Made by a program: the position numbers and the translations under genes
Shown: piece by piece, positions 4,800 to 60,679 of the stretch
Layout of the letters: each line of letters opens with the position of its first letter
How positions within the stretch are numbered: the stretch's first letter is position 1
Notes under the pieces: model-generated
Database searches by the model: none
The model's input: the letters and a program-made list of their open reading frames with translations, nothing else
What the model was told of the DNA's origin: nothing
DNA from: an uncultured Flavobacteriales bacterium
Lineage (GTDB): Bacteria > Bacteroidota > Bacteroidia > Flavobacteriales_D > Parvicellaceae
Assembly: GCA_943787725.1 (NCBI GenBank)
Contig: CALSNM010000009.1
Location: 1 to 64,000 of the forward strand
Direction of reading: 5' to 3'
DNA: 64,000 nucleotides

Positions 4800-4871
4800 C
4801 AATTGTGATGTCCTGCGCAAAAAGCTATACCCCGGATCACTTAAAAAAGTGTATATTTAGGGTTAATTAAT

Positions 4872-7579: not shown

Positions 7580-7589
7580 ATTCATTCAT

Positions 7590-9958: not shown

Positions 9959-9959
9959 A

Positions 9960-19734: not shown

Positions 19735-21258
19735 TTACTCGAAATATATCCAAGGCTTACCAAAGTATATGTCTTTTGTATTGACTTTCTTAACTCTTTT
19801 CAGTTCCTTGCTTGCTTCTTTTTTGTCGTTGGTTTCAAGCGTGTAAATCAGAAACCATGAGGCTCTGGAATTACGAACAATTCTTGTTTTTAGCTTATAC
19901 TCCCTAGTTAGTATCTTTTGAAAGTTTTGCGCTTCTTTCATTTCCCTTGTCGCTCCAACTACAACGTATAAGTCTCCTTCAACTATTTTATCCGAAGAGT
20001 CTTCGTTAACTTCTGGCTCTTTGGGCTTTTCTTCTTCTGCGCTAGGAGAACTTTGCTCTGGCTCTATAGTTTCTGACTCTATATTTTCTGGTTCTGTAGG
20101 CTCCTCGCTTTCTAAGCTAGGGTTATTACTCGGTTTAAACTCAAACTCCGAAATCATTTTTTCCCTATCAGCTCTTTCCTTTTCAAGCGCCTTTTTCAAC
20201 TCTTCCAAACCATAGATTTTTTCTTTTAACAGTGCTTTTTGTTTCTCTAACTCTTCTTTTATTGTCAAGTTATCTTGCTCTAAGGCGTCTGTTCTCTCAT
20301 ATAATTCAGCATTTTGTTCCTCTAGTTTTCTAAAATTAGCATCAGAACCTCCGCCTCCAGAGCCAGATTTTCCAATTTTATATCCGATTAATATCTCGTG
20401 GGTACCACTGTTTTGAGTGCCTATTTCTTGACTTGAAATGCCATATGAATAGCCCAACAATAATTGCTTGGTGATGTTGGCTCCTATCATTGCCGAATAA
20501 CCAATGTCGTGATGGTACTTTAGTGTTCCTCTAAACTTCTTCTTGTACTCAGCGGAAATGGCGCCCTCAAAAATAAATGGAGTTCCCTGCGCTCCTTTAA
20601 TATATATACTCGGCATTAATCCCCATTTCCCTCCTTTCAATAGAAAATTATATTGTGCATTTGCATTAAAGTGAGGAATGTTGAGGAAAGATAAACTGTC
20701 TGAAGAAAAATTATTTTCATACCTAAACTTTGGAGACAACAAGTTGGAAATTGCAAAACCCAATTGAAGCTCGTTAAACTTATAATGAATTCCTGCTTTA
20801 GCATCAAAATTCGTTGCATTCTGATTATTATAAAACAGTTGCATCTCAGACTCATCTTCTGCAATGATGTTATTAAAAATTAACCTATTTTGAACTATCC
20901 CAGAAGATAAACCGAATCTAATTTTGTGCTTACTTGTAATGGAAACATTGTAAACATAAGAAAGATAACCCCCAGTACTTCCCAAAATATTTGTTTGGTC
21001 ATTAATAACCGTAAAACCTAAAGCCATTTTGTCTCGGTTAAAATTTCCATCAATCGTAAACACTTGGGTTTCTGGTGCTCCAGTAAAACCATGCCATTGC
21101 TTGTGTACGAGTAAATGTGCAATGTTTCCATTTAATCCAGCAGCAGCAGGATTAATAAAATATTGGTTTTGCAAATAATGCTCTATGACCGGTGTTTGCT
21201 GACCTTGAGACATCAATGAGCCTAGCAATATCGTTAGTAAAAGTAGTCCTCTTTTCAT
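19735..21258 (-). CDS. PorP/SprF-family T9SS outer-membrane protein with C-terminal coiled coil, acidic/Pro linker and SPOR-like domain
   Basis: QQTPVIEHYLQNQYFINPAAAGLNGNIAHLLVHKQWHGFTGAPETQVFTIDG is a classic PorP/SprF N-terminus; followed by NAELYERTDALEQDNLTIKEELEKQKALLKEKI coiled coil and GDLYVVVGATREMKEAQNFQKILTREYKLKTRIV...SWFLIYTLE. Confidence 0.88.
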   Translation of the reverse strand: MKRGLLLLTILLGSLMSQGQQTPVIEHYLQNQYFINPAAAGLNGNIAHLLVHKQWHGFTGAPETQVFTIDGNFNRDKMALGFTVINDQTNILGSTGGYLSYVYNVSITSKHKIRFGLSSGIVQNRLIFNNIIAEDESEMQLFYNNQNATNFDAKAGIHYKFNELQLGFAISNLLSPKFRYENNFSSDSLSFLNIPHFNANAQYNFLLKGGKWGLMPSIYIKGAQGTPFIFEGAISAEYKKKFRGTLKYHHDIGYSAMIGANITKQLLLGYSYGISSQEIGTQNSGTHEILIGYKIGKSGSGGGGSDANFRKLEEQNAELYERTDALEQDNLTIKEELEKQKALLKEKIYGLEELKKALEKERADREKMISEFEFKPSNNPSLESEEPTEPENIESETIEPEQSSPSAEEEKPKEPEVNEDSSDKIVEGDLYVVVGATREMKEAQNFQKILTREYKLKTRIVRNSRASWFLIYTLETNDKKEASKELKRVKKVNTKDIYFGKPWIYFE

Positions 21259-21263
21259 CTTTG

Positions 21264-24200
21264 TTATTTATTTCTTAATACCGTTAATGAGCCCTTATAC
21301 ACTTTGTCTGAATTCGTAAATTTAATTACATAATAATATGTTCCATCCGGCAGCTGGTCCGTTCCTGATACACCTTCCCAATCATTTTGATACCCTTTCA
21401 CAGAAAGCACCTCACCACCCCCATCTATCGTATACAAAAACATCTGCTCCCTCAAACGTTTCTATATTGGTAATTTTCCAGGTGTCGTTTAAACCGTTGC
21501 CATCAGGTGTTATTACGTTATAAATAAATAGTTTGAAATCCTCTATTACATTTACAACCATACTATCTATATTTTTACAGCCGTGTATATCCGTTACCTG
21601 CAAATAATAAGTGGTTGTTTCCAATGGATTTGCATCAGGATTTGAAATCGAGTTGTTGTCCAATGATTCTGTAGGTGTCCAACTGTATCCAGTAGCCCCT
21701 GGATAATAACCCTCTAATCCTACTGTAAAACCCTGACTAACACTTGTGTCTATCCCGGCATTTGGCTCCGGTAAAGGAAATACTTCGGCATACTTAGGTA
21801 TTGAATCTACACACAGTTCTCCAGTTGTTGCAACTAACCAAACTTGATAAAACCCATCTGTAGCATAGTTGTGCACAGGGTCTGTAGCGATAGATATGTT
21901 GTTATCGCCAAAACTCCAAGCATAAGAAATCGTTCCTGATGCTATCTGAGTCGAGTTTACAAACATTACAGGAGATCCAACGCAAGCATCTGTAACTTCA
22001 AAATTAGGATAAGGCATAGGATTAATAATTACCGACTGCGTTAACTGAGAAACACAGCCTTCATTGGATGTTACCGTTAAGCTAACGTTATACGTTTGGT
22101 CATTTAAATAATTATGCTGCGGATCGGTTGAAGTTGAGCTTGACCCATCACCAAAATCCCATGAATATCCAGTCAAAGAAGCTGGGGAATTAGCCGTGTT
22201 AATAGAACTTGTATCATCAAAAACAGATGTTTGAAAATGACACACCGGATCAGCAATAAAACCAACCTCCGGCAAAGGGTGAACGCTTACTGCCTGGGTA
22301 ATTGTATCCTTACAGTTATTGTTGGATGTTGCTATTAATTCAACATTATATATACTATCTAGACTATATAAATGGCTTGGTTGGTCAACTGTACTTGGCA
22401 AGGAGTTATCATCAAAATCCCACTCGTACGTTAAGGAGCCAGTCGTAATATTTGAGCCATTCGCAAAATTCATAGTATTTCCTAAACACACATCAGCAAA
22501 TGTGAATGAAGCTGTTGGCATGTAATAGATTGAAACTAGTTTGGAAACACTACTTGAACATCCATTTGAGGTGGTAGTCGTTAATTCAACATTATAGGTA
22601 TTGGGTAGTAAATATTTGTGCTTAATATCTTGAGTTGTGCCAACAGAAGCATCATCAAAGTCCCATAAAAATGTTAGGTTATTTTGACCTTCTGAAAAAA
22701 CAGTAGTACTATTAAATACCGAAGAATCTATTTGACATTCATTGGTAAAAGTAAAATCCGTTTGGGGTACTTCATATATAACCACCGTGTCTTGAGTAAC
22801 TCTTGTACATGTTGCAGGAAAGGTGCCAATTACCGCCTCCAATGCAACGACATATGTACCAGTATCCGCATAAGTATGCGATGGGTTAGCTAACGGAGAT
22901 ACTGCTCCATCGCCAAAAAACCAAGAATACTGAACAGTTGAACCTGGAGACACAGATGTATTTATAAAGGAACTTGCCGTTCCTTCACAAACACTATCAC
23001 AAATAAAACTAACGTCAACTGGCTCGGTTATTTCTACCTGTTTTGTAACTGAATCGACACAACCAAACGTTGACTCAATAATTAACTCTACATCAAAGGT
23101 GCCCGCAGATGAGTAACTGTAAGAAGGAGTAGCAATATTGTCTGTTCCTATACCGTCCCCAAAATCCCAATCATAGGAAGAAACATTACTAGGAGCAATT
23201 GATGTAACTGAAAAACTCATTGGAGACCCCAAACAGACCGCTGCTTGCGTAAAGTCCACAGATGGCAATGGGTTCACCTGGACGCTTTGCGTGATTGAGC
23301 CAGTGCAGCCTCTATCCGTTTCCACCGTAAGTGACACATTATAAAACCCATCAGCAGGATAAATATAACTAGGGTCCGAGGCTATACTCCCGCTTCCATT
23401 TCCAAAGTTCCAAGAATAGTTTGTAATTGTCCCATCGGTTGAAGTCGATCCGCTACTATTAAAAACGGTATTGAAGCCCTCGCATTCTGTTGTTGATGTA
23501 AAAGCTGGTTGCGGGTTTCCATTAACAACAATTTCCTCACTTTCTGAATAAGCGAATGGACAAACACCACTCTGAACTCTCGCTCTATATTGAGTGGTTT
23601 GCGTTAAATTTGCATAGCTTAAATCTCCTGTTGTATTAACAATGTTGGTCCCTGGAGTAGTGAAATTATCGTTAGAAGATTCCCACCATAATACATCTCC
23701 GTTTTCATAAACTAAATTAACAACTCCTCCGTTTCCGCCCGCACAAACCGTATTTGCACCAATTACAAAGCCACCAACCGTAGGGCTATTCACCACTACT
23801 TCATAAGGATTTGCTTGCGTTACCTCAGGGCATGTTCCACTTTTTACGATTGACCTAAAAAAAGTAGTTTGCATTATGTTCTCAAAAGGAAGAGATGGCG
23901 TTGTGTCATTCAAAGTAGTCCAAGGGCCAAGAAGACTGTTTGACATCTCCCATCTTAGTATATCTCCATTACTACCCGTCAAAACCAAGGAGTCTTCATT
24001 GGTTCCTGAACATAAAATATTTATTGGTGTAATTGTACCTTCACTGGATGCGTCTGCTACATTTACCTGCAAACTTTCTGTTACCGGCAAGCAACCTGGC
24101 ATTGCTATATCGACAGAGTATGAAGCTTGATCCGCTACAAGGACCGAGTTAATTGTGAAAGACTCAGTAGTGTAGGATAAAGCTGTTGTGTTTTTTTTCC

Positions 24201-25314
24201 AAGAATAAGAAGCTCCTGCAAAGATGTCAGCACTTATCTGAAATGTTTCTCCCTCGCAATAAGGACCCGTTGAAACAAGATTTACAGAGTTTGGATATTC
24301 TTCCTCCACGCCGATGACAGAAACAGGTTCCACAACAGCGTATTTTCGCGCTCGTATCCAATCTATTTGAAGACTTCCTGAAATACTTGAAGGAGGATCT
24401 TGACCGTTTTGAACGCCTACTATAACTTTTTTAGGCTCAACAAATGATGCCGTGAAATCTGATCTGGTTTCGTTGACTGCACCCGCTGGAAAAGTGATGC
24501 TTTGATTTGACTCCAAATTCCAATTAAATGACCATAAACCAACTGGGGTTAAGGGAGAGATTGCAGTAACCGTAACTAAAGGAGGTGTGAGCAACAAGTT
24601 TCCGTTACTAATTGTTGGTGGAGCTCCGGAAACTTGCTGCATTAACATGGACCCATTTTCATATGTAGATACAAAACCATCATTGTTGGAAGCATCTAAA
24701 AGCCCCATAGCCGCTATTCCACTTGAAGCAGTAATAGTATTCATTTCAACTGTTAGCGTATCCGTATAACTGGTCTTCGAAACCAATAATGCTTCCGGGT
24801 TTGCTGGATCTTGATTAAAAGTACACTTACCTCCAGACAAACTGATATTTGTATTGATTCCAAATTGATCCCATTTTAAAGCATCCACACCAGCTGCTTC
24901 AAAAGAGTCAAATAAATTAAATGTTGCATCGCCATTTGCAACTCCTGCGGCACTCGGATTACCATAATACATGTATATGGTTGTTGATCCTACAGGTAGC
25001 GTAGGCACTTTTACCCAAAAACGAGTGCTTAACTGATCATAGTCTAAAGGATCAAACCAATAGGATAAATTATTTCCTGAAGCATCTTTAAACCTAAAAT
25101 CGTCGCCATTATATTTTGCTTTTCCTGCTGCTACCAAAGCAGCTGTTGGAACATCTACCGCAACCTGAAACTCGGTATAAGCATTGTTCGATGCGTCAGA
25201 GGTGATCTCAATGGCTTGGCGATAATCAAAGCCCGGATAACATGGCTGGGATTGGCCTTTGCCTAAAATTAGGCTAGCCAAAAATACAACTATAACTTTA
25301 TTGATACTATTCAT
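21264..25314 (-). CDS. Giant DUF2341 + multi-PKD protein with gliding-motility-associated (type B) C-terminus; one frameshift at the C5 tract 21418-21422
   Basis: PCYPGFDYRQAIEITSDASNNAYTEFQVAVDVPT...YWFDPLDYDQLSTRFWVKVPTLPVGSTTIYMYYGNPSA (DUF2341); repeated SYxWDFGDGxxSxxxxPxHxY. Removing one base joins VFVYDRWG to GEVLSVKGYQNDWEGVSGTDQLPDGTYYYVIKF in ORF 21264..21455. Confidence 0.85.
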
Positions 25315-25317
25315 TTT

Positions 25318-28300
25318 CTATTTGTAAATTTTTATAAACTTAACTGTCTTTTGATCTCTTCCTGCCTTCACTCTTACTAAATACATTCCCGGCAATATTT
25401 TATTTAGTTCGTATTGTTTGTTTACTTCTTTGGCTACAAAACTATCCGATTCAATAAGCTGCCCCATCAGATTGAAAACATCTACCTGTATGGCGCTTGT
25501 ATTTTCAAGTCTTAACTTTAATGTAAAGTTACCATTATTTGGATTTGGGTAAACTAACGCCTCCAATATTGAAGTGTAAAGTTCAGGGTTCAACGGAGGG
25601 TTCTCCAATACTTTAGCAGCAGCTCTTACCGTTACGTTTTTCTTTTTGGTAGAATTGCAAACTCCGTTGTTTACTGTCAAGGCAACCTCATAGGTTATAG
25701 AGTCAACTCCAAATGGGACATAAAATTTATGTGAAGGCATGGAGGCCGTATCAATAGGCGTATTATTTCCAAAATTCCAACTTGAAGTGTAGGGTTGCGG
25801 ATAAGACAAGTTAACAAATTGAACTGTATCGGCATGTTCTATGTCGCTATCAAATAAAAACACCGAAAACAATTCTAAACTAGAGGGCAGTACCTCAATT
25901 GAATCAGTAGCAATACAGCCATATTCATTCTCGATATTCAAATAATAAGTTCCTGTATCTTGAACGAAATATGTTTCTGTAGAAGCAAGATTAGATGTAG
26001 AATTATACCAGCTATATGTAGAATTTGGAGGGGTATTGTCAGAACTTAATTCAACTGTTGAACCCTCACAATAATAAACATCATTTCCTAAATCGATGGT
26101 AAATAAAGGTAGAGAATTCACATTCACCGAGGCATTACTTAAGCAGCCTGTTGATTGATCGGCCAGTGTAACAGCATAGTTTCCTGTAGAAGCAACGGTT
26201 ATAGTTGGAGTAGTTGCTCCAGTATTCCATAAAAAGTTCACTCCTCCTGGGTTCCCTGGATCAATTACTAAGGTTTGGTAGCTACATATTGCCGTATCCT
26301 GCGGCATGTTCAGTACCGGAGAATCATGTATAATTACATCTATTGAATCTCTGACAGCGCATCCTGTTGAGTCAAGCGTTACCTCCGCCCAATAGGTGTC
26401 AGAAGTATAAACAGTATCTGAAAACCCTACGTTTCCGTTTTGAGAAGACCACTCATAGCTTACACCAGAACCGGCAAATGCATTTAACACAAGAGAATCA
26501 CACGATTGAGTTGACGACCCCAGAGAGAATGCAGGAATAGCAACGAAAGCAACCTCAACTGTATCACGCGAGCTACATCCTCCTGCAGTGACTTCAATCC
26601 AATAATATCCAGGCGATGTGATGTTTAAAGCAGGGTCTATTGACCCATCGTTCCATAAGTAATCCGTGCCTATTATATTTGACTCTAATGTATAAACAAC
26701 TCCTTCACAAGTATCTTGCAGAGGAGCTCCTAAACTAACGGGGGTGCTAGCCACAATCGTCACATTTATAGTGTCTCTACCCTCGCATCCATTTTGATCT
26801 GTGACTTTAACAATATACTCTCCATCAACAAAAACCGAGATCTCTTGTGCTGAGGAAGCCACTATAGGAGTTGATTCAGTCCAATCATAAGAGGCTCCTG
26901 AACCATAAGAGCCCGCGTTTAGAACGGCACTGTCACATTGAGCTCCGTCATTTCCTAAATTAGGAGAAACAGGAACATTCAATAAAACGTATGTACTATC
27001 CGATAACATGCAGCCATCAGAAGTTGTGATGTTGGCAACATACAGGCCAGTAATCGTTACATTTATATCAGATGATGAAGCCCCTGTATTCCAAGAAAAA
27101 CTTGAACCAGAATTACTTGATAATTCATTCGCGTCGATTATTAAACTTGTTCCGCATGTTTTGGTAGTGTCTCCAAAATTATCTACCGGCAAACTATTAA
27201 CCAGAACAGAGTCCAAAAGGGTGTTTTCACAGCCATTTACTGAAGTTGCAGTCAACTCTATATCATGATATCCCGCGGTTCCAAATGTTTGGATTTCATT
27301 ATTGTTTGCCGAAGTGTATGCCAAGGAGGGAATAGTCCAACCATAAGAAACAGCATTGGTTGTGGTGTTCCATATATTTACAGGAACGTCCTGACAGGTA
27401 GGCAAAACGGAAAAGCCAACCGATGGGCCGTCAAATATTGTAATTGACTGTGTTGATGTAGATGTACAATTTTGAGGCGTAGTTACCGTAAGGGTAGCTG
27501 TATAAACCCCGTTTGACAAATAAATATTTGACCCATTTTGAGTTGTTGACGTATTTCCGTCACCAAAGTCCCAACTCCAATCTGAAATAGCAGAACTACC
27601 CGCTGTTGACAAATCCGCAAATACCGCTTGCGTATTTTCGCATGTGTCATTCAAGGTAAAAATAGAAATTGGATTCTCATCAACGGTTACCGGAATAGTG
27701 TCTGTATTGACACATCCAAACATATTGGTAGCCTGCAGCGAAACGCTATAGTTTCCTGATGAAGGATAAGTATAATTTGGGTTTTCAAAAGTTGAAGTAG
27801 GCGAACCCAAACCTAAAGCAGTATTAAAATTCCAAAGAAAAGTTGTTGGAGAAAACCCAACAGTATCTGTTGAATTAACAAAATCAACAGCTTGACCTTC
27901 ACACGCGGACAAGGTGGTGAAATCCGGATTAGGCAGCGGATTTACTGTTACAGGAAATGTAATTGGCGCCGAAACACAATTATTAGAACTCGCAGTTAGC
28001 GTAACGTTATACGTTCCGGCAGCAGGATATGTGAATTGGGCATCTCCGCCCGACGGAAACTGATTCGTTGTTAAGTCAACAGTTCCATCGCTAGTAAAAT
28101 CCCAATTCAAATCAGTCGCATTACTACCCGAAATAGTGGTTTGATTTGTGAAGTTTACCGGTGAATTATGACATGCGGTTCCAGGTACAAAGTCTGCCAC
28201 TGGAATTGGATGAACAACAATGGGAGTAGTTTCCTCACTAATGCACCCATCGACAGTTGTAACCGTTAAGGTAACATTGTAGTTTCCATATGTAGAATAT

Positions 28301-29729
28301 ACGTGATTTGTTGCAGCGCTTGGAGAAGGAGTAGTTGTTAATGTATTACCATCTCCAAAATCCCAAAAATAAGAGGAGGTAGACACAGACCCAGTAGGAG
28401 TGAAACTAACTGAAACTTGATCGCAAGATTCCAAAGGCACATCAAAATCAGGATCTGCTTGAGGAGCAGGAAGTAAATCAAATTCTTTTTTGTTAACGCA
28501 CCCTCTTGCATTCTACACAAACCAAGGTATAAGAACCGGTATCAGTCACGGGAAATTCTGCCATTTGTAACCCCCGAAACTTGATTGTTACTCGGTGTTA
28601 TCCAATAATAATCTCCAGCACTTCCATCGGCTAATAACGTCTCATCAGGGTTTGAAGGATCACAAAGTAAAGCCTCGCTAACATCAAATAGTGTATCCGA
28701 TACATTTAAGATTTGATGAACGTAAACTTCTGGAAGAATGTCACATGAATCTTTTGCTATGGTATATGCGGAATTGTTAAATATATCAACACTGTCAGGG
28801 TCATTTGCATTGGACACAGTACCTGTACCAATAACACTACCGTCCTCTCCAATATCTCTCCACTCGGGTATAGTGGTATGATTAACATAAATGTGCATCG
28901 AGTCGGCATCTGCATACATCAATCGCTCCAATGGATTATGAAACCTTGCGGTTATATCCGCTAATTTTCCGGGTGCAGAGATACTATCAAATCGATATGT
29001 TCTTTCAACAGAGCCTGCCATTGGGCCACATTGCTGAGCTACATTGTACCGATAAATATTCGGAAAATTTGCTCCTAAATAATCTGTAGTATTAAAGTCT
29101 ATGCCTATTCCTTTTAGTTGCGCAAACGAATAGGTTGCTGCATTATTCCAAGTAACGTTTTGAACCACAATTGGGTAATCTGGACCATAAATACGATTTG
29201 TGTTTGTTTCATTTATTATGCCGCTAGATGAGGATACTGGAGAATTATCTAGGTAATACATTATAAGTCTATCACCTGCTAAAAAAACATTTCCAGCCAT
29301 CATGTCAAGGTCACCATTTATTTGTGTTTTTTTAAGGATGCTTAAGTTTAATCCTGACGTAAGGTTCACCTCCACATTACAAAAATTGATTTGACTGGTC
29401 CCTAAAATAGAATGACCTGTTGTTCCAAAAAACTGAAGGCTTCCTAACGTTGGCTGTGTTCCAAAAAAATTGAAATCACCAATGTTTTCTAAATCTCCAT
29501 CTAATTTTATAAATCCTGCATTTTTTAAACCGATGTTGTTGTTAGTCAAGCCTGCTGTTGTGGCCTCGCAGGAAGAAATCAAATCCCCAATAATAACCAT
29601 GTTACCGTTCGGGGCGACACTAAAAAATTTATCAACATGTCTCGTTTCAATTTGACTAGTCAACACATTGGAAATTAGGGTCAAAAGAAACAACCCTGTG
29701 ATTTTTATATATGTAATTTTTCTTATCAT
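25318..29729 (-). CDS. Giant multi-PKD T9SS type A protein; two 1-nt frameshifts (near 28513 and 28559)
   Basis: ORFs 28542..29729 and 25318..28440 join as ...SGVTNGEFPVTDTGSYTLVCVNARGCVNKKEFDLLPAPQADPDFDVPLESCDQVSVSF... when two single bases are removed. C-terminal VYPNPNNGNFTLKL...GMYLVRVKAGRDQKTVKFIKI. Confidence 0.8.
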
Positions 29730-29779
29730 ATTTTCAATATTTGAAAATTATACGTTCACCCTCAACTTCTCCATTTCAT

Positions 29780-30940
29780 TTAAAGCTTCATGATAAATGC
29801 CAAAGCGTAATAAGGCGGTCTGTTTTCATGAGAGGAGGGCGCTGTTGCAATATTCTTATCTCCAGAGTTCCCAACATGGTTGTCAACTGTTATACCAGTA
29901 GTTTCTGAACTTGTCTCATCATTACCTTCATTGTCTCCATTACCAGAATCGTCTATTCCGCCGCCGCCAAGACTATCATCCAAATCTATATCATGATTGT
30001 GACCAGGGTCGGTAATTGAATGTCCGTGATTAATAGAGTGATTGTGGTTTGGCAAAGCACATTGCGAATCCGTTAATGTAACTGTATTTGCTCCACCTTT
30101 ATTCCCTGGCGAATAACCCGCTCCTGCAACTGGATCTGTTGAATTCTCCCCTCCTGATCCCACAATAAAGCGCTCTCTTAAATCGGGTGCAACTATATCA
30201 CCTCCTCCTGCTAACCTACCATAGGCTTCGCCATCGCAAAGTGCCCATCCTGCAGGAATTGTGGTTCCTGACCACATAATAATTGCTCCTACCGGAATAA
30301 GTTCATGTCCGTATTGTCGGACCACACCAAATACATTTAATGAAGATGTGTCTGATGCCGACGCTCCAACTTGAACTCCTCCACCGCCTCCTTCTTGTAG
30401 TTTAAGTGTTCCTGCAGTATTAGCATTTGTCTTAACCAATATTTCATCATTATCGATAGACAAATGAGTGTCCGCATCAGACTGACCAATCAATAAAGGA
30501 GCTGAAGTGTTTGCTATATTAACATCTTTTGTTTTTAAGGCAATATGCAAGTTGCCTTGAAGACCTGAGGACAATCCAATTCCGACCCCTCCTATTGCAG
30601 AAGTAAACCCTGTTGGGTTAAAATATACATCAATTGGGTCAGGTCCAGTGAATATACTTTTCCATGGTGTTATAGCGTTAAACCAATTACCTGAACCTTT
30701 CAAGAAAAAATTTTCTTTATAGTACATCAATAAGCCTTCGGGAGCAGCAGACAACGAACCACTATTTGGATTACCTGCCGAATGAGGCATCAACAAACCT
30801 AAGCTATTGCCGTTCGTCAAATCTAATATTGCATTCGCATGCGGCAATGGTTGATCCCCTATACTTACTTGGGCGCTAGTGGGACTGATTTCAATAAATA
30901 TTGAAATGCAAATCAGTAATAATATCGTTATTAATTTCAT
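29780..30940 (-). CDS. Exported phage-tail-collar / tail-fibre-tip-like protein, paralogue C
   Basis: Signal peptide + AQVSIGDQPLPHANAILDLTNGNSLGLLMPH; PVGAIIMWSGTTIPAGWALCDG...DLRERFIVGSGG; HNHSINHGHSITDPGHNHD; ENRPPYYALAFIMKL. Confidence 0.85.
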   Translation of the reverse strand: MKLITILLLICISIFIEISPTSAQVSIGDQPLPHANAILDLTNGNSLGLLMPHSAGNPNSGSLSAAPEGLLMYYKENFFLKGSGNWFNAITPWKSIFTGPDPIDVYFNPTGFTSAIGGVGIGLSSGLQGNLHIALKTKDVNIANTSAPLLIGQSDADTHLSIDNDEILVKTNANTAGTLKLQEGGGGGVQVGASASDTSSLNVFGVVRQYGHELIPVGAIIMWSGTTIPAGWALCDGEAYGRLAGGGDIVAPDLRERFIVGSGGENSTDPVAGAGYSPGNKGGANTVTLTDSQCALPNHNHSINHGHSITDPGHNHDIDLDDSLGGGGIDDSGNGDNEGNDETSSETTGITVDNHVGNSGDKNIATAPSSHENRPPYYALAFIMKL

Positions 30941-30950
30941 AGTTATTTAT

Positions 30951-32060: not shown

Positions 32061-32064
32061 ATTT

Positions 32065-33201: not shown

Positions 33202-35183
33202 ATTTTTATTGTGGTCTTTCCAGACCTAATTATATCTCCATCTTTAGTATAGCCGCGTACCTCTATTTCAAGAGGAGCATTCAATTCTTTCTTCACCTTA
33301 AACTCAGTATAAATAGAAAGACCTGATGCAGGTCTTAGTATTCCCGAATCATCGGTAACATAAACAACATACCCTTTCATTTCATGTGTTTTTATCTCAT
33401 CCCACTGTATTGTAACTTGTTTTTTCTTATTGTTATAGTTAGCTTTTGAAACCATTATGGTATCCGTAACAGGTGCTTTTGGTATTTCAATTTTAAAAGT
33501 ATTCGAAGTTTCTGAAACATTACCTGTTACGTCGACTGCTTCAATGACATACAAATAAGAATCCCCTTTATCCGCGCGCCTATCGAGATAAGTCGCTGTT
33601 GCACTTGGTATCAACTTAATGTTTACTTGTTCCTTGGCTGCAGAGTCATTGAAACCTGACTTATAAAGATTATAGCCTTTCAAATCAGGATCAACATTTT
33701 TTAACCAATTAATTCTAATGTTGCCTTCTTCAAGAGAAACGTTTTTAATTACCGGCGTTAAGGGAGGGGTTACATCCGGCATTTGTGCTAAAGAATTAAT
33801 CGATGGCTGACTGCGATTAAAATTGGTGTCGATTGCCACTACCCGGTAAACAAATTTATTCTTAATATTCTTCGAAAGACTTTCTATGTATTGAGTTTCC
33901 TTAATCGGAGTTGAGTTGACGTTAATATAACGATTATCTTCTGGGTTCTTGTGGTTTAAAGACTTTTGTATATAATAGCCTAGAAGGTCTGATTCTGAAT
34001 TGGCTCTCCAGGAAAGTTTTATTTCTCCTGAGGTCGCTTCACTTACCAGGTTTTTCGGAGCACTAGGTGGCTCAACATCTTTAATTTCAGTAAACATAAG
34101 CCCTGATGACGCCTCATTACCTGCAATATCTACTGAAGAAACAGAAAAGTAATGCCCGCCTACGCTCATTCCAGCTAAGTCATACGATTTGCTCTCTTTT
34201 GAGATTAGCTCTGCATTTACTTTTATAAAGGAGCTATCTGGATTCTGGCCTGTATAAACATTATAACCTGCCAAATCAGCTTCGTCAATTGCCTCCCACA
34301 CCACATTCACTTTTCCTATCACCGAGTTGGGCGTCAATTTCAGCCCGAAAGGCATTTGTGGAGGAACAAAGTCTTTCATTGGTGCAGCTACTTCAGCAGA
34401 CATTTCCGATCTCTGATTAAAATAGTCTACTGCCTCAAACTTATATGTATAGCCTGTTTCATACACAATATTGGTATCAACAAAGAAAATAGAATTCTCA
34501 TTGTATTTTTTAGCGCTTTTTGGCTGAATCGCCCTAGGGCCAATTGTTGTTATTTTTTCATATTCACCTTCTCCTATCTCTTTCCTATAAATTTCTACCC
34601 CATAGTACCTGTATAATTCAGGTTTCCAATTAAAAGTAATGTACTTCTTTTTCCTGTTCAGCGTTGGGTTTTCCGGAGGCATAGGTTTACTGTACTCAGA
34701 ACACATTATTTCTTTAGACTGAGCAAGCTCTTGTTCTGTTCGCCATTGACCAATGCTATTTTATACGTATATTTTGTGCCCTTTCTGTGCGGTTTTATCA
34801 TGGTACATAATTCCACTGTAACCAGCCATTTCATTGCTATAGATTGACTTAATCAGAACAAAAGCTCGAATTATACTAACTTTTAGGTCTTCGTAAGGAG
34901 ATGCAATAAGAGCTGCATGCAAATCTGCTTCTTCTTTGTTTAAACCATGGCCATCAGGCAAAGATTTTCGTGGAACAATCGGCGTCGTATTCAACTTTGT
35001 CCACGATGCGCTTTCCGAACTCCGATAAACATTGAATCCTTCCGGGTGATAGAGATATTCATAAATCCATTTTAATTGTATGCCTTCTCCTGATGCAAAG
35101 TCATTGGTAACAAACAATTCCGCTTCTCCCTGCGCCTTAGCTGTTTGGGCAAACAATATAACTATGTAAAGTATCTTTTTCAT
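33198..35183 (-). CDS. Exported fibronectin type III multidomain protein; two compensating 1-nt indels (about 34779-34781 and 34738)
   Basis: ORF 34761..35183 (signal peptide, ASGEGIQLKWIYEYLYHPEGFNVYRS) joins via GTKYTYKIALVNGE..ELAQSKEI to MCSEYSKPMPPENPTLNRKKKYITFNWKPELYRYYGVEIYRK in ORF 33198..34706; FN3-like repeats (SAPKNLVSEATSGEIKLSWRANSESDLLGYYIQKS). Confidence 0.78.
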
Positions 35184-35187
35184 TTAT

Positions 35188-38100
35188 TTAAAAACTCGTA
35201 TTAAACGACATGTCAAAGCTTGCGCTTATAATATCTAGAACGGTAACATAGCCGCTTAGACTACCCGAAACCTGTGTCTCTGTTTCTAAGAATTTGGCCA
35301 ATAGCTCCCCTGAAAGACCCGCTTCAGCTAAGGTGCAGGAACCACTAACACCGACCGCCCAATAACTGGCTCTTATCGCCACGTATAGGTCTAGCCAAAT
35401 CCCTGCTTCTAATAATTGAAAGTCAGGATAGAGCTCTGCTGTGGCTTTAACGCCTAACTCCGCTGATGCCTCAGCCGAGAGGCCAGCTCCAATAACACTG
35501 CTTCCGATTTCAACAGAAGCACTTGCTCTCCAACCTACAAAGACACCTAAATCAACGGTTGTAGCAGAAGAGGTCGACTCTATGCCTAACCATCCTCCAC
35601 CTCCAAATCCAGAACATGTCGGATAAACCTCTATTCTTTGCTCTTCCGTACCAAGGTCCAGCTTAAATCTACTAGGAGACACATCCAATGCCATAGCACC
35701 TTCAATACAAACAGGACTATTTCCTGCAACAGCTGCATTTGCCACAAATCTGCTATTTTCGCTGTCAAAAGATAACTCTATCTGTCCTCTAATACTTCCT
35801 CCACCTTCATCAGCAATACTATTAGTGAGATGTGAAGGGCCATCCATAGCTTCTACAGTTCCTGATCCTTCCAAATACTCTGCTTCTGGTGGCACAGGTT
35901 CCGAACCGGTTATTGGTGTAATTCCCGACTCATCCTTTATAAATCCATAAACTGAGGAACCATTAATAAATCTAGTTTCTATATTTTTTTGAGCGTCGAC
36001 AGTAAAAGCAACTTCACCAAAATCAGGAGACTCTACACCAACCGTAACATCTTCATTTCTTTCTCCTTCTACATAAATCGTATGTCCATATGCCGTTACA
36101 TCAACTCCTGGCTTATTGCCTCCGCTTCCTCCTCTAATGCCTAATTCATAATCTCCTTGTTCATAGGTAACATAATGTGTGGGAGTAAACAAACCGATGG
36201 TTCTCTCTCCATCGGTCATTTCAATTTCCAACTCCTTACTTAGCGTTGCTGCATAGTTTCCATCCACAAATGAAAGTTTTTCATCCTGCGTTAACGCAAC
36301 ACTTTTAGTTCCATTTTTTAACTCCAAGAAATTATCATCTCCACCGATAATCAACTCTGTGCCATTGTCGCTGTATTTTGCACTGTTATTATTAACTTCA
36401 ATAAACCTTGAATCATCAATATCAACATGTAAGTATTCCTCATCGTTAATGGCAAAGTGTTTTCCTGAATAATCAACTTCAAAACCAGAATTATTGACGA
36501 AAAATCGATCTTCGCCATCCGTTAACTCTATTGCTTGAGCTCCTTCTTCATTGAGCACTGCTATACCTCTATCACCGTCGCTCATGGACAACCCACTTGT
36601 GCCAAGCTCAAATGACCTTGTTCCATCCGAAAAGCTCAGAGACTCTCCATTGCTAAATTCAGCTTGGATATCATCATACGTAAAGCTTACTTTTTGGTCT
36701 GCTTTATCAATCGATAAGCTCTTATTAGCCCCATAAGCCATACCAAAGGCACTTTCACTTAAATAAATACTATTATCGTCTTGGCTCAAAGCAAGTTCGT
36801 CTTGAGATAAATCAATAGTTTCTGTTCCATTCGTAAAGTATAACGCCTCTGAACCCAGTCTAACTTCGTTTTCTACATATTGCAGACTTAACAAATGTTC
36901 TTCTATTTTTAATTTTTTGTCTTCAGACAAAATAATTTCCATTTCATCTGGACTTAAACTAACAGACTTACCATCCTCAGCTAAACTCATCCCCTCCGGA
37001 GAAATCGCCAAAGACCTATTTGGGTCGTTGTAGGTGATTTCTTTTTCATCCGAAATAGTAAACGACTTTTCATCGTGGGATGCCGTTAAAACACCTCCTG
37101 TATATTCCAAAGAGTTTTGAGCATCGTAAGCCAAATAGCTTCTTTCCTCACTTACTATTAATTGCTTGTCTCCTTCTGTAAAAGATAACTCCGTTGAAGA
37201 AACACTATAAGCCCTTCCTTCTTCAGAGTAGGATAACTCATCTTCTGAAATTGCAAGGGCTTTTCCATCAAAATTCACCTCCAAGCCATTTTGCGGGTGG
37301 ATCTTAAAGTTTTTCCCCTCCTCATACTGAACAAATAGCTCTTTTTCTTGGTTATAGCTCATTTGTTTGTCTCCAGACTCAGCTGAAATCCCCGCACTGC
37401 TAATCGATGTACTGTTGTATCCATCTGTATAGTTCAGTCCTTCTGTTGAAGAAGCAGATACTTCATAATTATCGTAAACCAAGGAGCCTTCTGTTGGTGT
37501 TAATCGTAATTGATTTGTTGCACCTTGCTTAATCGTTAGCTCACTTCCCTCCAGTGATGCCTCGTAATCATTATATTTAACTGAGTAATTGCTTCCTTCT
37601 TTTTCAATTAAAAGATCATTTCCTGCAACATATCCTCTAATAATTCCATCTTGCAAGTCGGCAGCTTGCACATAAACCGAGTCGGCACCTTTCAATAAAG
37701 TAACGGCACTATTTCCTCCATTTATGTAGGGCCTTACTTGAACATCTCCAAATGTAAACACTTGAGACCAATTAACGTCCGGCACATTCGTATAATCATA
37801 TACCTCTTCATCATCAACATAAACCTTGTTATTTTGAACAAGTAAACTATGACCTGAATAGCTAACATACTCTCGATCATTACCCAAAATAACTTTTGCT
37901 CCCATACCTTCATATTCGATTTCCTTTAAAGATCCCTGAACCGTTCCCTTTAATGAGTGATCGCCTTTCGTAAATACCGTTGTGTAGGCATCGTCTTCTT
38001 TTTGAGCCGAAATGCTGAAATTATTTGTCAAACCAAATGTGATTTTCTGGAGCGTAGGGGAGTAATCTAATTCAGACAAAATATTTCCTTTTTCAAAGCC

Positions 38101-41100
38101 GATACCGAATGATTCATCTGATAAAGATGCACTTCCATCCATTGTTAAATCGCCTTTTTCAAATTCAAAACCGCCACTTTCGTTATTAATGTCTCCGGTA
38201 ACGGTTACGCCTAAATCTCCATGGTCAAAACTGATCGAACCTACACCGCTGGTATTTGCTGATAAACCAAATGACCCCAATGAATTCGTCAAGCCAATTC
38301 TTCCCATATTTCCAGCTATACTAGCAGATACTGTTTGCCCATTTCCATTATAATATACAGAGTCAAAGTCTGTCGATGTTCCATGTGAAAGGTATAATTC
38401 GTTACCAGCATACCCCAGCCCTAAGCCAATTTCACCTGAATATTTATAAAGACCTACACCTACGTTCCCATCATTATATCTCATGAAGCCAGTACCGTCT
38501 GACCTCCTTGTTAATGAAGCTGGCCCAGAATACATGTGTATAGAATCATCCAAAATCGCGGTAAACTCCAGGCTTGATTTCTTGATATCTATCAAGCCGG
38601 TATTTTCTGTTTTGTTTCCTTTTAAGTGAATAAAATCACCTCCATCTCCAACATAAATTTCTCCCGCTGTTTGCGGAATATTTACACCAAGCCTCGTTTC
38701 AATATTTCCTTTTTTGAACCCGACAAGTCCACTTCCGTCGTCACTTCCCTCAATAGAAAACTCGTATTCACCTGAAGATACAAAAAGAGAGGATTCCGTT
38801 TCTCCCACAACCCCTCTTACAGTATTGTTGTCAATACTAATGTCCAATTCGCCTGTCGCATCAGCAGCTCCTTTCGCGAAAATACTATTAGAGCCATCGG
38901 TCAATAATAAAGAACCGGATTTTTCTTCTAAATCAGCATTCACTTTTATTTGATTGGAGCCTTTAATCACCTCAATCATGCCTTTGTTTTGATTGTTTGA
39001 CTGAACATTCAGCTCAACATCTGAAAAAGCAATATTAATATATGACGAGTCTTCCGTAACTCCTGAAGCGAGTATCTTGTCGTCAAAGGACAAGCCAATA
39101 TTCCCTGTGTTGTTCGTGCGGTCTGCAGCTATCGTAAATTCAGCCGTATTGTCTTTATAGTGCACGCTTCCTGCCGTACCTTCGGTATTGCCTGAAATGC
39201 CAAACTCTTGTTCTCCATTTTTCAACAACAGACGAGCCCTGACTACTTTCTGTTAATTCCGCGAACAAGCGCTTGTCTCCGCTCACCAAATCAATATGAC
39301 CCGTGTTATCCTCTAAATCCGCTCCTACATCTATTCTGGTGTCGCTCACGTCAAGTAAAAAAGTACCTCCTTTTCCATATTCTCCTGAAACATCTAAGGT
39401 AACTCCCGAAGTGTTTAGAGCAAATGAAGCGCTCTTTTCAAGCGTGTTTACGTTTGTGTTCATTGCCAAACCGTCAATCGATAGATCGAATGAACCTTCG
39501 CCAGACTCCTTGTCTCCAGAAATACTGAACTCGTTCGTGCCTGCCGCTAAGCCAAGATAAGCAGAACCAGCAGTATTAAAGCCTGTTTCAAATTTTAAAT
39601 CGCTTGACAATTCCAAATTAAGGTATCCGCCATCCGTTTCAACTCCGAAATCAATCGACTTGTCTCCATATGCAAAAGCCAAAGTTCCTGTTTTATCAGC
39701 CCTATTAATTCGAGTTGCAAAAGAAACATCATCATATGTTAAATCTAAATATCCCTCATTCGTTCCTTGAATCCCTAATGATAAAGACTTACCGTCTAAT
39801 CCTAATCCTACTCCAAAAGAACCTGCGGCATTGGCGTTAAAACTTAAACTTCCTGGGCCTTTGCTATAATTAAACCCTATTCCAGGTGTAGAACCTAGCT
39901 CTGCGTCAAAACCAAAAGCCAGGTCACCCTTAGCAAAATCCATAGAGCCTTTTGTTAAGCCCTCCGCTTCGATTGTTAAGTCACCGCCGCCGACACTAAA
40001 AGTTAAGCTTATTGGACCTATTGCCTCCAAAGCTTCCTCCACTATTGCTTCTCCAACGGCAGATGTCATTCCGCCTCCAGCGGTTCTTCTATTTGTGTTC
40101 AGAAATGATCCGTCACCACTCATTGAGATAGTAAAGTCTCCTGATTCTAATACTTGAATTTCTGCGCCAGCATCAACAGCAAAAAGAGTACCTCCTGTTT
40201 GATTGTCAATGATCTGCATATACAGCCCCGCGCCAAATGCCATCTCTGGATCAATTACATATTCCGTTTCGTTTTTGGACATATGGTGATAAATCTTCCC
40301 CTCCATTGCCACTAAATTGAATAATGGAGGAACTGGAATACCCAAGCCTTCTCTATCATTAAAATAAGCATCGAAATACCAAAATTTTACTCCATCTCTA
40401 TCTCCAAAAATCATATTCGCCCCAACATCTATTTGCGTAGGAACCTTAAGGCTACCATTTATTCCTCCTCTAAATGATGTTCCCCATGTAGGGTCGTTAT
40501 TCGACAACTTTAAGTAGCCTTCCATGTCAACAATAACATTGTTTATTGCAATAAACATTTCATAGGTTGTCAATGTTGGTTCTCCCGGGTTAATATCCTC
40601 CGGAACAGAAATAGCCGGCTCTGGCTGTGGGTTTGTGGGACTAAAATCAGGCAACACAACATCACCTCCAACTTCTTCTACACTAGATATAGCAAGTAAC
40701 GGAGGTCCATCTTCACCAACTACATCTTCACCCATATCCAAAGCAGCGACATACGAAAAGACGTAGTTTCCATTAAAAAGCGAAGCGCCAACCTCGCTGA
40801 CATAAGCGGCAAACCCTTTATATTCTCCTTCAACTTGAGTGTCTAAAGAGTTCGAGCCACTTTTCGATCCTATTCCTATAGTGTTGTCTCCATAAACCCT
40901 AAAATCGCTAATCCCTGAAACCAATGCGCTTATTCCTGTCAAATCAGCATCTATTTCAAGGTCTAACCTTTCATTTTCAGCAAACACAGCTCTGTTTATA
41001 GTAATGTCTACCCGATTTTCTCCACCATATGGGTTGAACACCATATCTCTTTGGGTGAGGTCTTCGTTCAAATAACCTTGAGCCAAACCATCATTAGTAA

Positions 41101-43432
41101 CGGGAATTTCAAAGCCAAAACCATCAACTTTATCAATGACAGGAATGTTAATTTCTCCTATTATATTACTACTAGAAATTTGATTATTCTCAACATTAAA
41201 ATTGCCGGTAATTTCTGTGACAAAACCATTAAACGTAATCCCTTCTTGTGTTAAAGCATATTCATAATCTAATTTTAACCCTTCGTTTTCTAGCCAAAAA
41301 TCTGCATTCGTCTGGTCCTCGTGAAAATCAATTATTTCGCTAACCGAAAATTGGCCAGTAGCATCTGTTGCTCCTGGAGAAATTCGAACTTGAAACTCCG
41401 GAAAGTAAAACCCCTTCCAACCCGGGGTTCCAGATAACTTTTCAGGGGATTGCTCCTCAGACAAATCAATTATTACGCTTTTAGGCATGAAACCTATTTC
41501 GAGACCATCTGAAGGTTGAAGATAGTTTGTTGCTGAGCTTAATAAACTTGATATTTCAAAATAATGAACGGATTGTAAACTTGTAAAATTAACCAAGAAG
41601 GGGTTTCCGTCATTCGTTTTTACATCAGAATTGGAAGAAATTGAACCAGTAAAGCTCAATGAATATGTACCGTTCATAATTTGAAAACTTGACGCTTGAC
41701 CAATTTCAAATTTGAAATTATTTGGCTCTAACAACTCCAATTCCATGTCCTCCAACACATTAACTTCTCCATTAATTTGAAAAGCAGAATTAATACTAAA
41801 CTCAGCATTAGCCGATTTAACTTGCACAAGTTCGCCACTGCTCGTAGCGTGAGGAAATGGCCAAGAAACTTCTCCATTTGTCTGAATTCCTGAACTATTC
41901 AATGACCCGGTGGTAAACGAAAAAACAGCTACACCATTGCTAGCTATATTTGGCGTAAGTTCTACAGGTGTTAGATTAGATAGGTCAATAATTGCTTCAC
42001 CATCAACTAGTGCGTAATCTCCGCCTCCTAAATCACTTACGTTAAGGTTTTCGAATTCAAATTCAACAATGTCTTCCTCGTTAGCAGAAACCTGAAGCCT
42101 TCCCACACCTGACAAGTTTTCTAGTTCACCATTTGATATCGAAACTACTTCTACCCTATTGGGCCCAGCCATAAAATGGTCCACCAAAGGCGCTGAATAA
42201 AAAGTGTATATCTCACTCTTTGCAACCTCTTGCGCTCCGGTATAGGCCGTGACTTGCCAAATATATGTTGTTCCTGGCTCAGTTGTTTGGCTTAAAGGAA
42301 ACCCAGCTCCGTTTAACGAAGAAGTGGTAGGTAGGTTTTTCACGTACCAATCCGGATTTGCGTCCATCGCGTCCTCCTTTTCCTGACCCTCATTCAACTC
42401 TTTTATAACAGCCATGTAATTAAACTCCTGTCCTGGAACACCTAAATCACTAACATTCCAACCAAAAGACTTAGACTCAAACTTTCCGTATATGTGCTCA
42501 TCCTCAGGGGTTGTTATAGCCAGGTTGCCATCATGTGGATATCCATAAAAAAACCAGCACCATTCACTAAAACCATTGTTTCTATAAATATCTTTTCCGT
42601 CTCCATCGACCGCTCTTACTCTATACACATATTGCTTTCCGGGAGTTAGCATTGATGTGGTATTAATACCAAAATCTATTTGGTTTTGAGTCTGATTAAT
42701 AAAGTCGGACTCGTAGACTAGTAATGCATGGTTATTTGCAACAGCAAAATAAGGATCGCTACCTTCTTCTGTCACTTCATAAACCGATAATTGATAAAGG
42801 CTGTTCATTGCAACAAGCATTTGATCCGGGGATGCACTTCCAGCAATTTGCCATGAGAAATTGACAATCTGGGGATCTGAAGGAACTACGACTCCCTCAC
42901 ATTCAGGCTGCAATGTTACAGGCGGCGGGTCAAAAAAGATAAATGCAGGAGCGCAAGAGGGCAAAGACAGAGGCACTCCAGAAACATAATCTAAGACTTC
43001 AATACAAAAATTATAAATTCCTTCCGGGAGCTTTCCGCTTTGGTTGAGGCTTGCGGCTGTAATGCCTTCTAAATCAACATTATTAACATCTAGATATTGA
43101 GCAAATAGTGAGCCCTCTATAACTGAAGGTATACCTGAAGTTAGATTAATCGGATTCGAAGGAAGAAAGCTTTGTTTCGTTTTTATCCTAATTCCCTCAC
43201 CTTCAATAGTCACTAATAATCGTACGTCCCAAGAAGGTTCATTTAAATCGTTCAAGGTAATTATTCCTTGCAGCGCATTTGATCCTATACTATAATACTC
43301 ATTCACATAAACTGGATGTGGTGCGTTCATTATTGTAACGGCAGAAACCGGCAGCTGCTGACTATTTCCGAACAATGGCAGAAACAATATAAAGCCTAGT
43401 AAGTGATAAATTCTATTCATATTTTTACTCAT
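35188..43432 (-). CDS. Giant (~2750 aa) TANFOR-like surface protein with long degenerate beta-repeat region; one frameshift near 39235
   Basis: ORFs 39155..43432 and 35188..39228 join as TESSQGRLLLKNGEQEFGISGNTEG when base 39235 is removed. N-terminus (VTIMNAPHPVYVNEYYS...LPEGIYNFCIEVLDYVSGVPLSLPSCAPAFIFFDPPPVTLQP) resembles TANFOR. The remainder is repeats such as LSFSDGTRSFELGTSGLSMSDGDRGIAV. Confidence 0.75.
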
Positions 43433-45102
43433 TAAAACGCGTAGTTATATCCAAGTGAAATAGTAGTCTCTTGCGTATCTGTAGTTGCGTTGTTTTTCCC
43501 AATGGTTGAAAAAATCAAATTAAATGTGTGGTGTCGGTTTAACTTAAATGTCCCCATGCTTTTAACATTTAACACATAGCCGTTGTCCACGCCACCTAAA
43601 AATGTTTTTAAAGCCGAAGCGCTTGCTGAGGCGCTTATTTTACCGCTTAAAAACCTCTTATTCAAACCTAAAGTCGGTCCTACCGACACAATATCATATG
43701 TCTCAGTAATATTCTTTGAGGCGTTAATCGCAGAAACCACATTAAGACCCGACTTTAAATGCCCATATTGAAAACTAACACCTCCGTTATAAAGCGTTGT
43801 GTTATCTATTCCGTTGATTTTGGCATTTTGAAAATTACCTCTGATAGAGGCTGCAATTCTTCGAACATCATTTGCCTTTGCATACATGAGTTGAAGGTTT
43901 GCGTTTTTAGTAACCTGAGCATAGCGGTTTGTATCTAGCGAATTTACAATAGTCATATAACTTTGAGAATTAAAATTAGAAAAAGCACCGTTGACCATAA
44001 AATTCTCGTTTATGTTGTAGTTTGCCGACAAGGAAGATATTAATCGTAACATCTCTGACGCCTTGCTATCATCTAGGTTGTTTCGCTGAAAACCTGCACT
44101 TCCAGCCAAAGTTAACTTGTTTTTTAGCATTCTAAGCGATGTTTTTCCCTGAAGATCTTCAAAGTCATTGTTTAAATATACAGAACCCATTGTTTGGTAT
44201 TCAGGATCGATTCGACGATAACCAAAACCTACCTTAAACTTCTTTTTATTGTATTCTAAATCAGCTTTTACAGCTTTTGAAAACGAACTAGAAGCATTTG
44301 CGTGGAATAATGGCCCTATATTATTTAGGTAGGAAAACCCCTCAAGAACTGTTGGGTCCAACCTAAGGTCTTTGGTAAATGCACTCCAATCTATTTCCCC
44401 TTTAAAAGAGAGCTCTTTTGAGAGTTTTTGTTTTGTTGTTAAGCCAAAAATTAAATTCTCACCGGGCTTTATTGTTGCGTCGTTTGCAAAGGATGCAATA
44501 GACGCTTGATCATCTTTGGCTCTAAAAACAACAACTCCAACATTGTTTTTTGAGGACCCTATCTCAACCATTCCTCCCAAGCCCCATCGCTCGAAACTAG
44601 GGGAGCCCACAACTTTTCCATCCGTATAGTATCCGTCTACGGCCCTAGCGAAACGTCCATAAAGCGCCTTCCCTCGTACAATTGAGTTTTTCGGAGCGAT
44701 CTCAATACCTACTCCCAAAAACTGGTTTCCACTTAATGAAAAATCAGAAAACTTCAAAGACCTATAGCCTAAATGAGCTGTAATGCCCTTATACTTTGGA
44801 CTGAGGCCATATTGATTAAAGGGTTGAGTAAAGTTTCTTTCTTGCTGATTCATGACAGCCGAAAAAGGAATGGAAACTTGACCAATTTTAATGTTAATAT
44901 TTGCTCCTAACTGCCAAAAAAATGGATCCCTTTGAGAAAGACTTGTGTCATTAATCATGTAGGCTGTGCCGATGGATGAAAAGCCTCCGGATATTTTAAC
45001 GTTCTCTTTAGCTTTTTTAAATAAAGACAAACTGTCCTGACAATAAAAAGAGGTAGATACAAATAAGAGAATTATGCTAAAATTGAACTTCATGCGTGTC
45101 AA
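43432..45102 (-). CDS. Outer-membrane beta-barrel protein, uncharacterised
   Basis: Signal peptide (likely start 45093, MKFNFSIILLFVSTSFYCQ); alternating amphipathic strands; terminal ISLGYNYAF with C-terminal Phe; stop overlaps the next start (TAATG at 43432). Confidence 0.65.
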   Translation of the reverse strand: MTRMKFNFSIILLFVSTSFYCQDSLSLFKKAKENVKISGGFSSIGTAYMINDTSLSQRDPFFWQLGANINIKIGQVSIPFSAVMNQQERNFTQPFNQYGLSPKYKGITAHLGYRSLKFSDFSLSGNQFLGVGIEIAPKNSIVRGKALYGRFARAVDGYYTDGKVVGSPSFERWGLGGMVEIGSSKNNVGVVVFRAKDDQASIASFANDATIKPGENLIFGLTTKQKLSKELSFKGEIDWSAFTKDLRLDPTVLEGFSYLNNIGPLFHANASSSFSKAVKADLEYNKKKFKVGFGYRRIDPEYQTMGSVYLNNDFEDLQGKTSLRMLKNKLTLAGSAGFQRNNLDDSKASEMLRLISSLSANYNINENFMVNGAFSNFNSQSYMTIVNSLDTNRYAQVTKNANLQLMYAKANDVRRIAASIRGNFQNAKINGIDNTTLYNGGVSFQYGHLKSGLNVVSAINASKNITETYDIVSVGPTLGLNKRFLSGKISASASASALKTFLGGVDNGYVLNVKSMGTFKLNRHHTFNLIFSTIGKNNATTDTQETTISLGYNYAF

Positions 45103-48084: not shown

Positions 48085-48170
48085 GCTATTTGTTTGAAGC
48101 TGCGAAAGTACGTAGTTTGGTATGTAAGGAGGAAATTTTAATTCTCCGCTTTATTTAGCAGCGTTCTTAT

Positions 48171-48395
48171 CTATTTGGCAACAATCTTTGCTAAGGGTTT
48201 CTGGAGCATATCGCCGTCTTCTGAAACTAAATTTCCATTTACCGCAAACCTTTCAGGACCTCCTTTTGAATTTATTTGATCTATAACTCCGATGCTTTTG
48301 AATTTGAAAGCCTTATTTCGAATTACAAGAGTGCTGCCTAATAGTCCTTTTGCTTTTTCTATAAGTGTGTCTAGTTGATTTGATTTAAGGCTCAT
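48171..48395 (-). CDS. Small hypothetical protein
   Basis: 74-aa ORF, start and stop present, no recognised domain. Confidence 0.4.
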   Translation of the reverse strand: MSLKSNQLDTLIEKAKGLLGSTLVIRNKAFKFKSIGVIDQINSKGGPERFAVNGNLVSEDGDMLQKPLAKIVAK

Positions 48396-48451
48396 GTTCT
48401 TTTTGAATTTTAGCGCAATGTAGTTATAAAATTGTTTTTAATGAATAAAAA

Positions 48452-48476
48452 AAGGGAGCTCAAATTTAGCTCCCTT
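48452..48476 (-). terminator. Rho-independent terminator (probably for the minus-strand gene ending at 48496)
   Basis: Perfect hairpin aagggagct-caaattt-agctccctt preceded on + by an A tract, giving a T tract on the minus-strand transcript. Confidence 0.85.
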
Positions 48477-48495
48477 AAATTTTGTATATGTTTAT

Positions 48496-60561: not shown

Positions 60562-60679
60562 ATCTGCATGATTCGGGTTATTTAGCACTAAGATAATGGT
60601 AACTGTCTTAAAAAAACGGCTGATTATCCCAAAGGTTTGAATTCCTACCTTAAAGGCTTATCAACTAGTTTCAAAAACT

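Follow-up and report, generated by a model that had tools for sequence, protein, structure and literature searches.

The TANFOR proteins entered the literature in 2020 as a class of polymorphic toxins encoded near SprB, FN3, PKD and Por_Secre_tail proteins, and their export by the T9SS was proposed from gene neighbourhoods alone, without a test (PMC7073777; Jana, Salomon, Bosis 2020). In the SprB/SprF type of cargo and carrier, SprF needs a Cys-X-Cys motif in its periplasmic C-terminal tail to join GldK and move (PMC12635249). We analysed a 64,000-nt stretch of DNA from a Bacteroidota genome, here called the window, that contains a compact array of nine genes. As in the TANFOR class, FN3, PKD and Por_Secre_tail neighbours accompany a giant gene in a genome that bears a T9SS and encodes the SprA translocon. 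We give a probability of about 0.5 to the reading that all nine genes code for a single cell-surface apparatus of the TANFOR kind, linked to the T9SS.

All nine genes lie on the minus strand, in the order barrel, giant, FN3 protein, three collar proteins, PKD giant with a type A signal, DUF2341/PKD giant with a type B signal, and PorP/SprF carrier. The first-pass annotation had reported this arrangement, with neighbouring genes spaced −4 to about +50 nt apart, and both gene coordinates and junctions were reproduced: a TAATG overlap at 43432, a gap of 4 nt at 35188/35183, a 4-nt overlap at 33201/33198, another gap of 4 nt at 32065/32060, and further gaps of 10, 50, 3 and 5 nt. Frameshifts split four of the nine genes, which have no such splits in relatives. 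The upstream neighbour leuS (45283–49899) is also broken into several frames here, yet it is a single intact ORF of 933 aa in the near-identical genome G002; assembly indels are therefore the likely cause. The proposal of one transcript is compatible with the nine-gene set, which is itself conserved. At the locus, consensus promoter scans gave as many hits as expected by chance and terminator scans gave slightly more, and no site of the TANNTTTG-type promoter pattern was found within the locus; the scans speak neither for nor against one transcript. An Rfam search returned no match. Elsewhere in the window, four consecutive exported proteins of 360–401 aa are encoded on the plus strand (6497–11165); the two that were tested have Kelch repeats and type A T9SS signals, and similar genes lie near the corresponding locus of the sister species G003. 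A minus-strand gene at 57148–60588 encodes a 1146-aa protein that has a type A T9SS signal in addition to Laminin_G_3 and PNGase F C-terminal domains.

The giant (35188–43432, minus strand, about 2740 aa) is read in two ORFs, 39155–43432 and 35188–39228, with a frameshift near 39.2 kb. The orthologues each keep one ORF, coding for 2722 aa in G001 (truncated by the end of the contig), 3059 aa in G003, 3024 aa in G038 and 3319 aa in G029. The TANFOR profile TIGR02542 had no match in the window genome at E 0.001, and we therefore re-tested the TANFOR label via relatives. Orthologues from the same locus did match the profile, below its curated cut-off (G029, 2.6e-5; G033, 6.2e-5), and the N-terminus of the giant aligned with 78 relatives. 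Sequence homology thus indicates, by way of its relatives and without a direct profile match in the window protein, that the giant is probably TANFOR-type. When genome contigs were searched using the N-terminal alignment, 144 relatives were recovered. The 80 loci that we kept include Flavobacteriales MAGs, Flexithrix, Flammeovirga, Pedobacter, Chitinophaga, Spirosoma, Aquimarina, Tenacibaculum and Flavobacterium.

The giant begins like a signal peptide and carries no recognised T9SS sorting signal. Compared with relatives of 1367–1722 aa, giants of the window type have ~ 1000–1600 extra residues between the body and the C-terminal domain. In a predicted, all-beta model of residues 300–1404, the final ~ 260 residues form very regular hairpins of eight-residue strands, for which the greatest Foldseek likeness was to the single-layer sheet of OspA. 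Because global confidence is low (pTM 0.44), the overall shape is uncertain, and a ribbon, a solenoid and a shell are indistinguishable. Teneurin, ApoB and phage proteins gave long Foldseek alignments with very low TM-scores and were discarded. We found no tandem DNA repeats, and the repeats of the giant would therefore be diverged protein repeats. The G003 giant (L033, ORF 930–10109) contains ~ 300 residues of pentapeptide-like repeats at about 1895–2200 (DFSGIDLSG and variants) that are absent from the window and G001 giants.

We compared the ends of TANFOR proteins within two groups. Within Flavobacterium, median identity over the first 900 aa is 75%, but only one of 21 pairs is related over the last 250 aa, as expected for polymorphic toxins. 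For the window's lineage, N-terminal identity is 40%, and 18 of 21 pairs are related over the last 250 aa, at 55% identity. These sequences point to a TANFOR subclass with a conserved, non-polymorphic C-terminus, to which the window protein would belong. A profile of the conserved C-terminal domain, with seeds from the window's lineage, Flexithrix, L100 and f8 that themselves include collar loci, found the domain in 12/12 loci with collar genes, and collar genes occurred in 0/62 loci without the domain, a count limited by the length of the fetched flanks. This subclass is also accompanied by T9SS cargo of both types, A and B, and by a PorP whose tail is SPOR-like.

In the TANFOR class a polymorphic C-terminal toxin is encoded in cis or by the next gene, mostly together with an immunity gene. 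Toxin, HINT and immunity genes were not seen in the window locus or its close relatives. The family f8 differs in this respect: in two of the three f8 loci tested, the protein that ends the array matches PT-HINT above the cut-off (47 and 62 bits), and the toxin of these loci is a separate protein. Relatives of this f8 protein were not found in the window's family, save for a stretch inside the TANFOR protein of G033. The f8 end proteins (L109 16021–22110, L107 16108–21621, L110 16103–19195) carry a HELGH motif, with PT-HINT in two of them; they differ at their C-termini and are always preceded by a protein of ~ 310 aa that belongs to no known family. L109 (CP034120.1) is titled Glaciecola amylolytica yet groups in the window's order with a TANFOR/T9SS locus, and the name looks wrong. 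The first-pass interpretation needs one change, since the core of the locus is no orphan: TANFOR proteins were already known as polymorphic toxins with T9SS cargo, FN3 and PKD proteins as neighbours (PMC7073777), and sister loci of like composition end in PT-HINT genes.

The barrel gene (43432..45102, minus strand) encodes a putative outer-membrane beta-barrel of 556 aa that matched no Pfam or NCBIfam family. AlphaFold predicts an all-beta protein of ~ 25 strands (mean pLDDT 84.5). Against the PDB, Foldseek ranked MtrB best, followed by S-layer porins, ushers and LptD. With identity of about 9% and no relative in a PDB sequence search, the modelled likeness to MtrB, ushers and LptD would reflect size class, not homology. 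We then counted strong matches (E below 1e-20) in a sample of 299 genomes of the order. The barrel occurred in 43 genomes and TANFOR in 41, and 40 of the 41 TANFOR-positive genomes carry the barrel, which supports the earlier proposal that it is dedicated to this locus. The associated Fisher value of 6e-45 treats related genomes as independent and so overstates the link, although the pattern still spans many families. At 25/45 strong TANFOR places the barrel lies within 300 bp, and at the others it is further off or on another contig; in the f8 loci the distance is about 12 kb. For the 80 named TANFOR loci, the barrel is in the fetched flank of 61 and directly beside TANFOR in 53. The co-occurrence argues that TANFOR proteins come with a dedicated outer-membrane barrel of a predicted ~ 25 strands, an association found here. 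In Flavobacteriaceae loci (L144 7507–9954, L152 7447–9993 and others) the partner barrel is 810–848 aa long and has an extra region.

The FN3 repeat protein (33198–35183, minus strand) is split into ORFs 34761–35183 and 33198–34706; in G003 it is a single ORF of 661 aa, and this orthologue matches fn3 above the cut-off. Behind it on the same strand lie collar protein 1 (32065–33201, 378 aa), collar protein 2 (30951–32060, 369 aa) and collar protein 3 (29780–30940, 386 aa). Copies 2 and 3 exceed the Pfam Collar cut-off of 24 bits (30.7 and 28.4 bits) and match the tail collar fibre family PHROG 1800 at 8e-28 and 3e-27; copy 1, which has a signal-peptide-like N-terminus, was recognised through PHROG 1800 (7e-14). 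Signal peptides at their starts agree with the earlier view of the collar proteins as exported without a T9SS signal. The three copies are about 80–95% identical in parts of the shaft and about one third identical at the tip, as expected if the tips had diversified for binding, and the window genome holds no further copies. Near a contig end, a 159-aa ORF of L037 (12619–13098) fuses a signal region like that of the type A PKD protein to a collar-like C-terminus; it is either a true chimera or an assembly fault.

These observations can also be read as a pure attachment organelle, in which the beta-sheet of the giant, stalks of the PKD and FN3 proteins and collar tips would together make a fibre that adheres to particles, algae or other cells, and the toxin link of the relatives would be irrelevant. 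The conserved C-terminus of the giant, the tips that vary among collar copies in the manner of binding tips and the lineage without a toxin gene would all fit, as would the pairing of type B cargo with PorP, which is typical of adhesins (PMC12618676). However, the core of barrel, TANFOR and FN3 is common to toxin-carrying loci, and the full-set relatives closest to the window locus, those in f8, end in PT-HINT genes. We regard the attachment organelle as possible but doubtful. The surface appendage or adhesin proposed from the first reading thus keeps its place among the candidates, and homology supports a machine of the toxin-delivery type at least as well.

We next consider the gene set in other genomes. 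The search for neighbourhood co-occurrence suggested at first pass showed that the families do occur together elsewhere, the opposite of the result that would have spoken against the first interpretation. In G003 all nine genes are intact and in identical order with gaps of −4 to +13 nt, and in G026, G029 and G021 the genes for barrel, giant, FN3 and collar proteins and for both PKD giants (A and B) are present as far as the contigs reach. The giant, barrel, FN3 and collar queries matched 14, 13, 11 and 10 of the 39 genomes analysed from the window's family, and their strong matches share loci. The f8 genomes (G096, G120, G134) have the same seven protein families as the window locus in rearranged order: barrel, FN3, collar, PKD A, PorP, PKD B, TANFOR, the ~ 310-aa protein and a protein of 1030–2029 aa. 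Families f4, f9, f11 and others have smaller sets of barrel, TANFOR, FN3 and sometimes PKD/CTD, and part of the set, namely barrel, TANFOR, FN3, collar and PKD A, is found in the cultured Flexithrix dorotheae DSM 6795 (locus L103). Since G003 keeps all nine genes in order and f8 keeps the same seven families in another order, the nine-gene locus is a conserved unit.

A shared neighbourhood could equally mean shared regulation, and the array might be an operon whose products, T9SS cargo and other exported proteins, form no single complex. T9SS cargo genes are indeed abundant near the locus. Yet the families still occur together in f8, where the genes are rearranged, and throughout the order barrel and TANFOR are hardly ever found apart, so that co-regulated separate proteins seem an unlikely explanation.

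The last three genes on the minus strand encode T9SS cargo and carrier. The type A PKD giant (25318–29729) is split into ORFs 28542–29729 and 25318–28440, the latter with matches to Por_Secre_tail (48.6 bits, cut-off 27) and TIGR04183 (49.8 bits, cut-off 23); it is unbroken in G001 (1462 aa) and G003 (1485 aa). The DUF2341/PKD giant (21264–25314; main ORF 21412–25314) has a frameshift within its type B signal. CHU_C scores 35.1 bits in the main ORF, where it is truncated, and the rest lies in another frame, in which the completed reading stops a few nt before the PorP start; in G003 the protein is a single ORF of 1365 aa. The adjacent gene (19735–21258, 507 aa) matches PF11751 (187 bits) and TIGR03519 (201 bits), which bears out the noted pairing of PorP with type B cargo. 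Its product ends in a coiled coil and a SPOR-like domain that scores 16.5 bits in the window, below the cut-off, and above it in the L109 orthologue. None of six PorP orthologues has a cysteine past residue 290, and the Cys-X-Cys of SprF is thus missing from their tails. Because of the SPOR-like tail, the missing cysteines and the CXC requirement of SprF, we infer from the sequence that the window PorP is probably a static carrier held at peptidoglycan.

This bears on whether the array is a gliding-adhesin locus of the SprB/SprF kind. Type B cargo adjoins PorP/SprF, and a SprB-repeat protein is encoded just downstream on the opposite strand, both in keeping with such a locus. However, the PorP tail has a SPOR-like domain in place of the cysteine pair needed for the track (PMC12635249), and SprB/SprF loci come without the barrel, TANFOR and collar set. 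The gliding reading is therefore very unlikely, and we set it aside for PorP as the tail cysteines are absent. The SprB-repeat protein itself (13380–19451, plus strand, 2023 aa) has a type B T9SS signal and is convergent with the PorP gene; it may share the PorP carrier of the locus, since the window contains no other PorP. A degraded prophage tail or extracellular contractile injection system, to which only the match of the collar C-termini to phage tail families would point, is hardly credible and was rejected, as no sheath, tube, baseplate or ATPase family is present among the locus ORFs, the collar proteins begin with signal peptides and the gene order is conserved across genera.

For the T9SS-linked apparatus of the TANFOR kind, we infer the assembly of the parts, the export route of the giant, what the tips do and which function the apparatus has in this lineage, as follows. 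The barrel would be the outer-membrane partner of the giant and would export or hold it, since the giant starts with a signal-peptide-like sequence and has no recognised T9SS signal. The giant, with its long beta-hairpin array, would project outside the cell, and the FN3 and collar proteins would serve as stalk and binding tips. The two PKD giants, whose type A and type B signals are observed, would leave via the T9SS. PorP would carry the type B cargo, with the SPOR-like tail replacing the SprF cysteine pair, and would be peptidoglycan-held and off the gliding track. In sister loci the apparatus plausibly delivers a toxin to neighbouring cells, because a PT-HINT toxin gene ends the array there. 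No PT-HINT-type gene was found in the window's lineage, whose giant has the long hairpin array in its place, and the best reading is therefore that the apparatus here is toxin-less, perhaps kept as a contact or attachment device, or loads an effector encoded elsewhere.

A more specific form of this proposal, which we put forward tentatively, is that TANFOR and barrel make up an independent delivery machine: the barrel would export or display TANFOR, with the toxin in cis or docked in trans. In the subclass found here, PKD scaffolds exported by the T9SS would combine with collar tips and a PorP held at peptidoglycan into a target-binding contact apparatus, which the T9SS would build without secreting the effector. 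A barrel that accompanies TANFOR across the order would be a concrete alternative or additional component for TANFOR toxin exit, a step that the original description of the class left open. The collar/PorP-SPOR subclass would unite T9SS cargo, phage-tip-like proteins and a giant lacking a T9SS signal in one surface machine of several parts. Several parts of the locus are newly linked here. In agreement with the first-pass statement, we found no described system of such composition, and a search limited to open-licence literature found no paper that combines tail collar proteins with the T9SS.

Among known systems, the TANFOR polymorphic-toxin loci of Bacteroidetes (PMC7073777) share with the window a probable TANFOR-type N-terminus, a predicted signal peptide, very large protein size and FN3, PKD and Por_Secre_tail neighbours. 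The window differs in the conserved, non-toxin C-terminus, in lacking an immunity gene and in having collar, PorP and partner barrel genes, none of which we found named in the consulted sections of that paper. SprB/SprF-type loci (PMC12635249, PMC12618676) likewise place a CHU_C-type cargo gene directly before PorP/SprF, whereas here the PorP tail combines a coiled coil with a SPOR-like domain and lacks cysteines, and the array includes further non-T9SS parts. The window barrel resembles MtrB, the PapC/FimD ushers and LptD in its about 25 predicted strands and in its Foldseek matches, but has no sequence relation to them, and its partner is a TANFOR protein. The predicted eight-residue-strand hairpins of the giant's repeat region resemble the OspA single-layer beta-sheet in structure alone, and the modelled array is far longer than that of OspA. 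Finally, the collar proteins share the C-terminal collar domain and tail-fibre profile matches with phage tail collar and short tail fibre proteins but, unlike these, they have signal peptides, are encoded apart from phage genes and keep a fixed place behind the FN3 gene.
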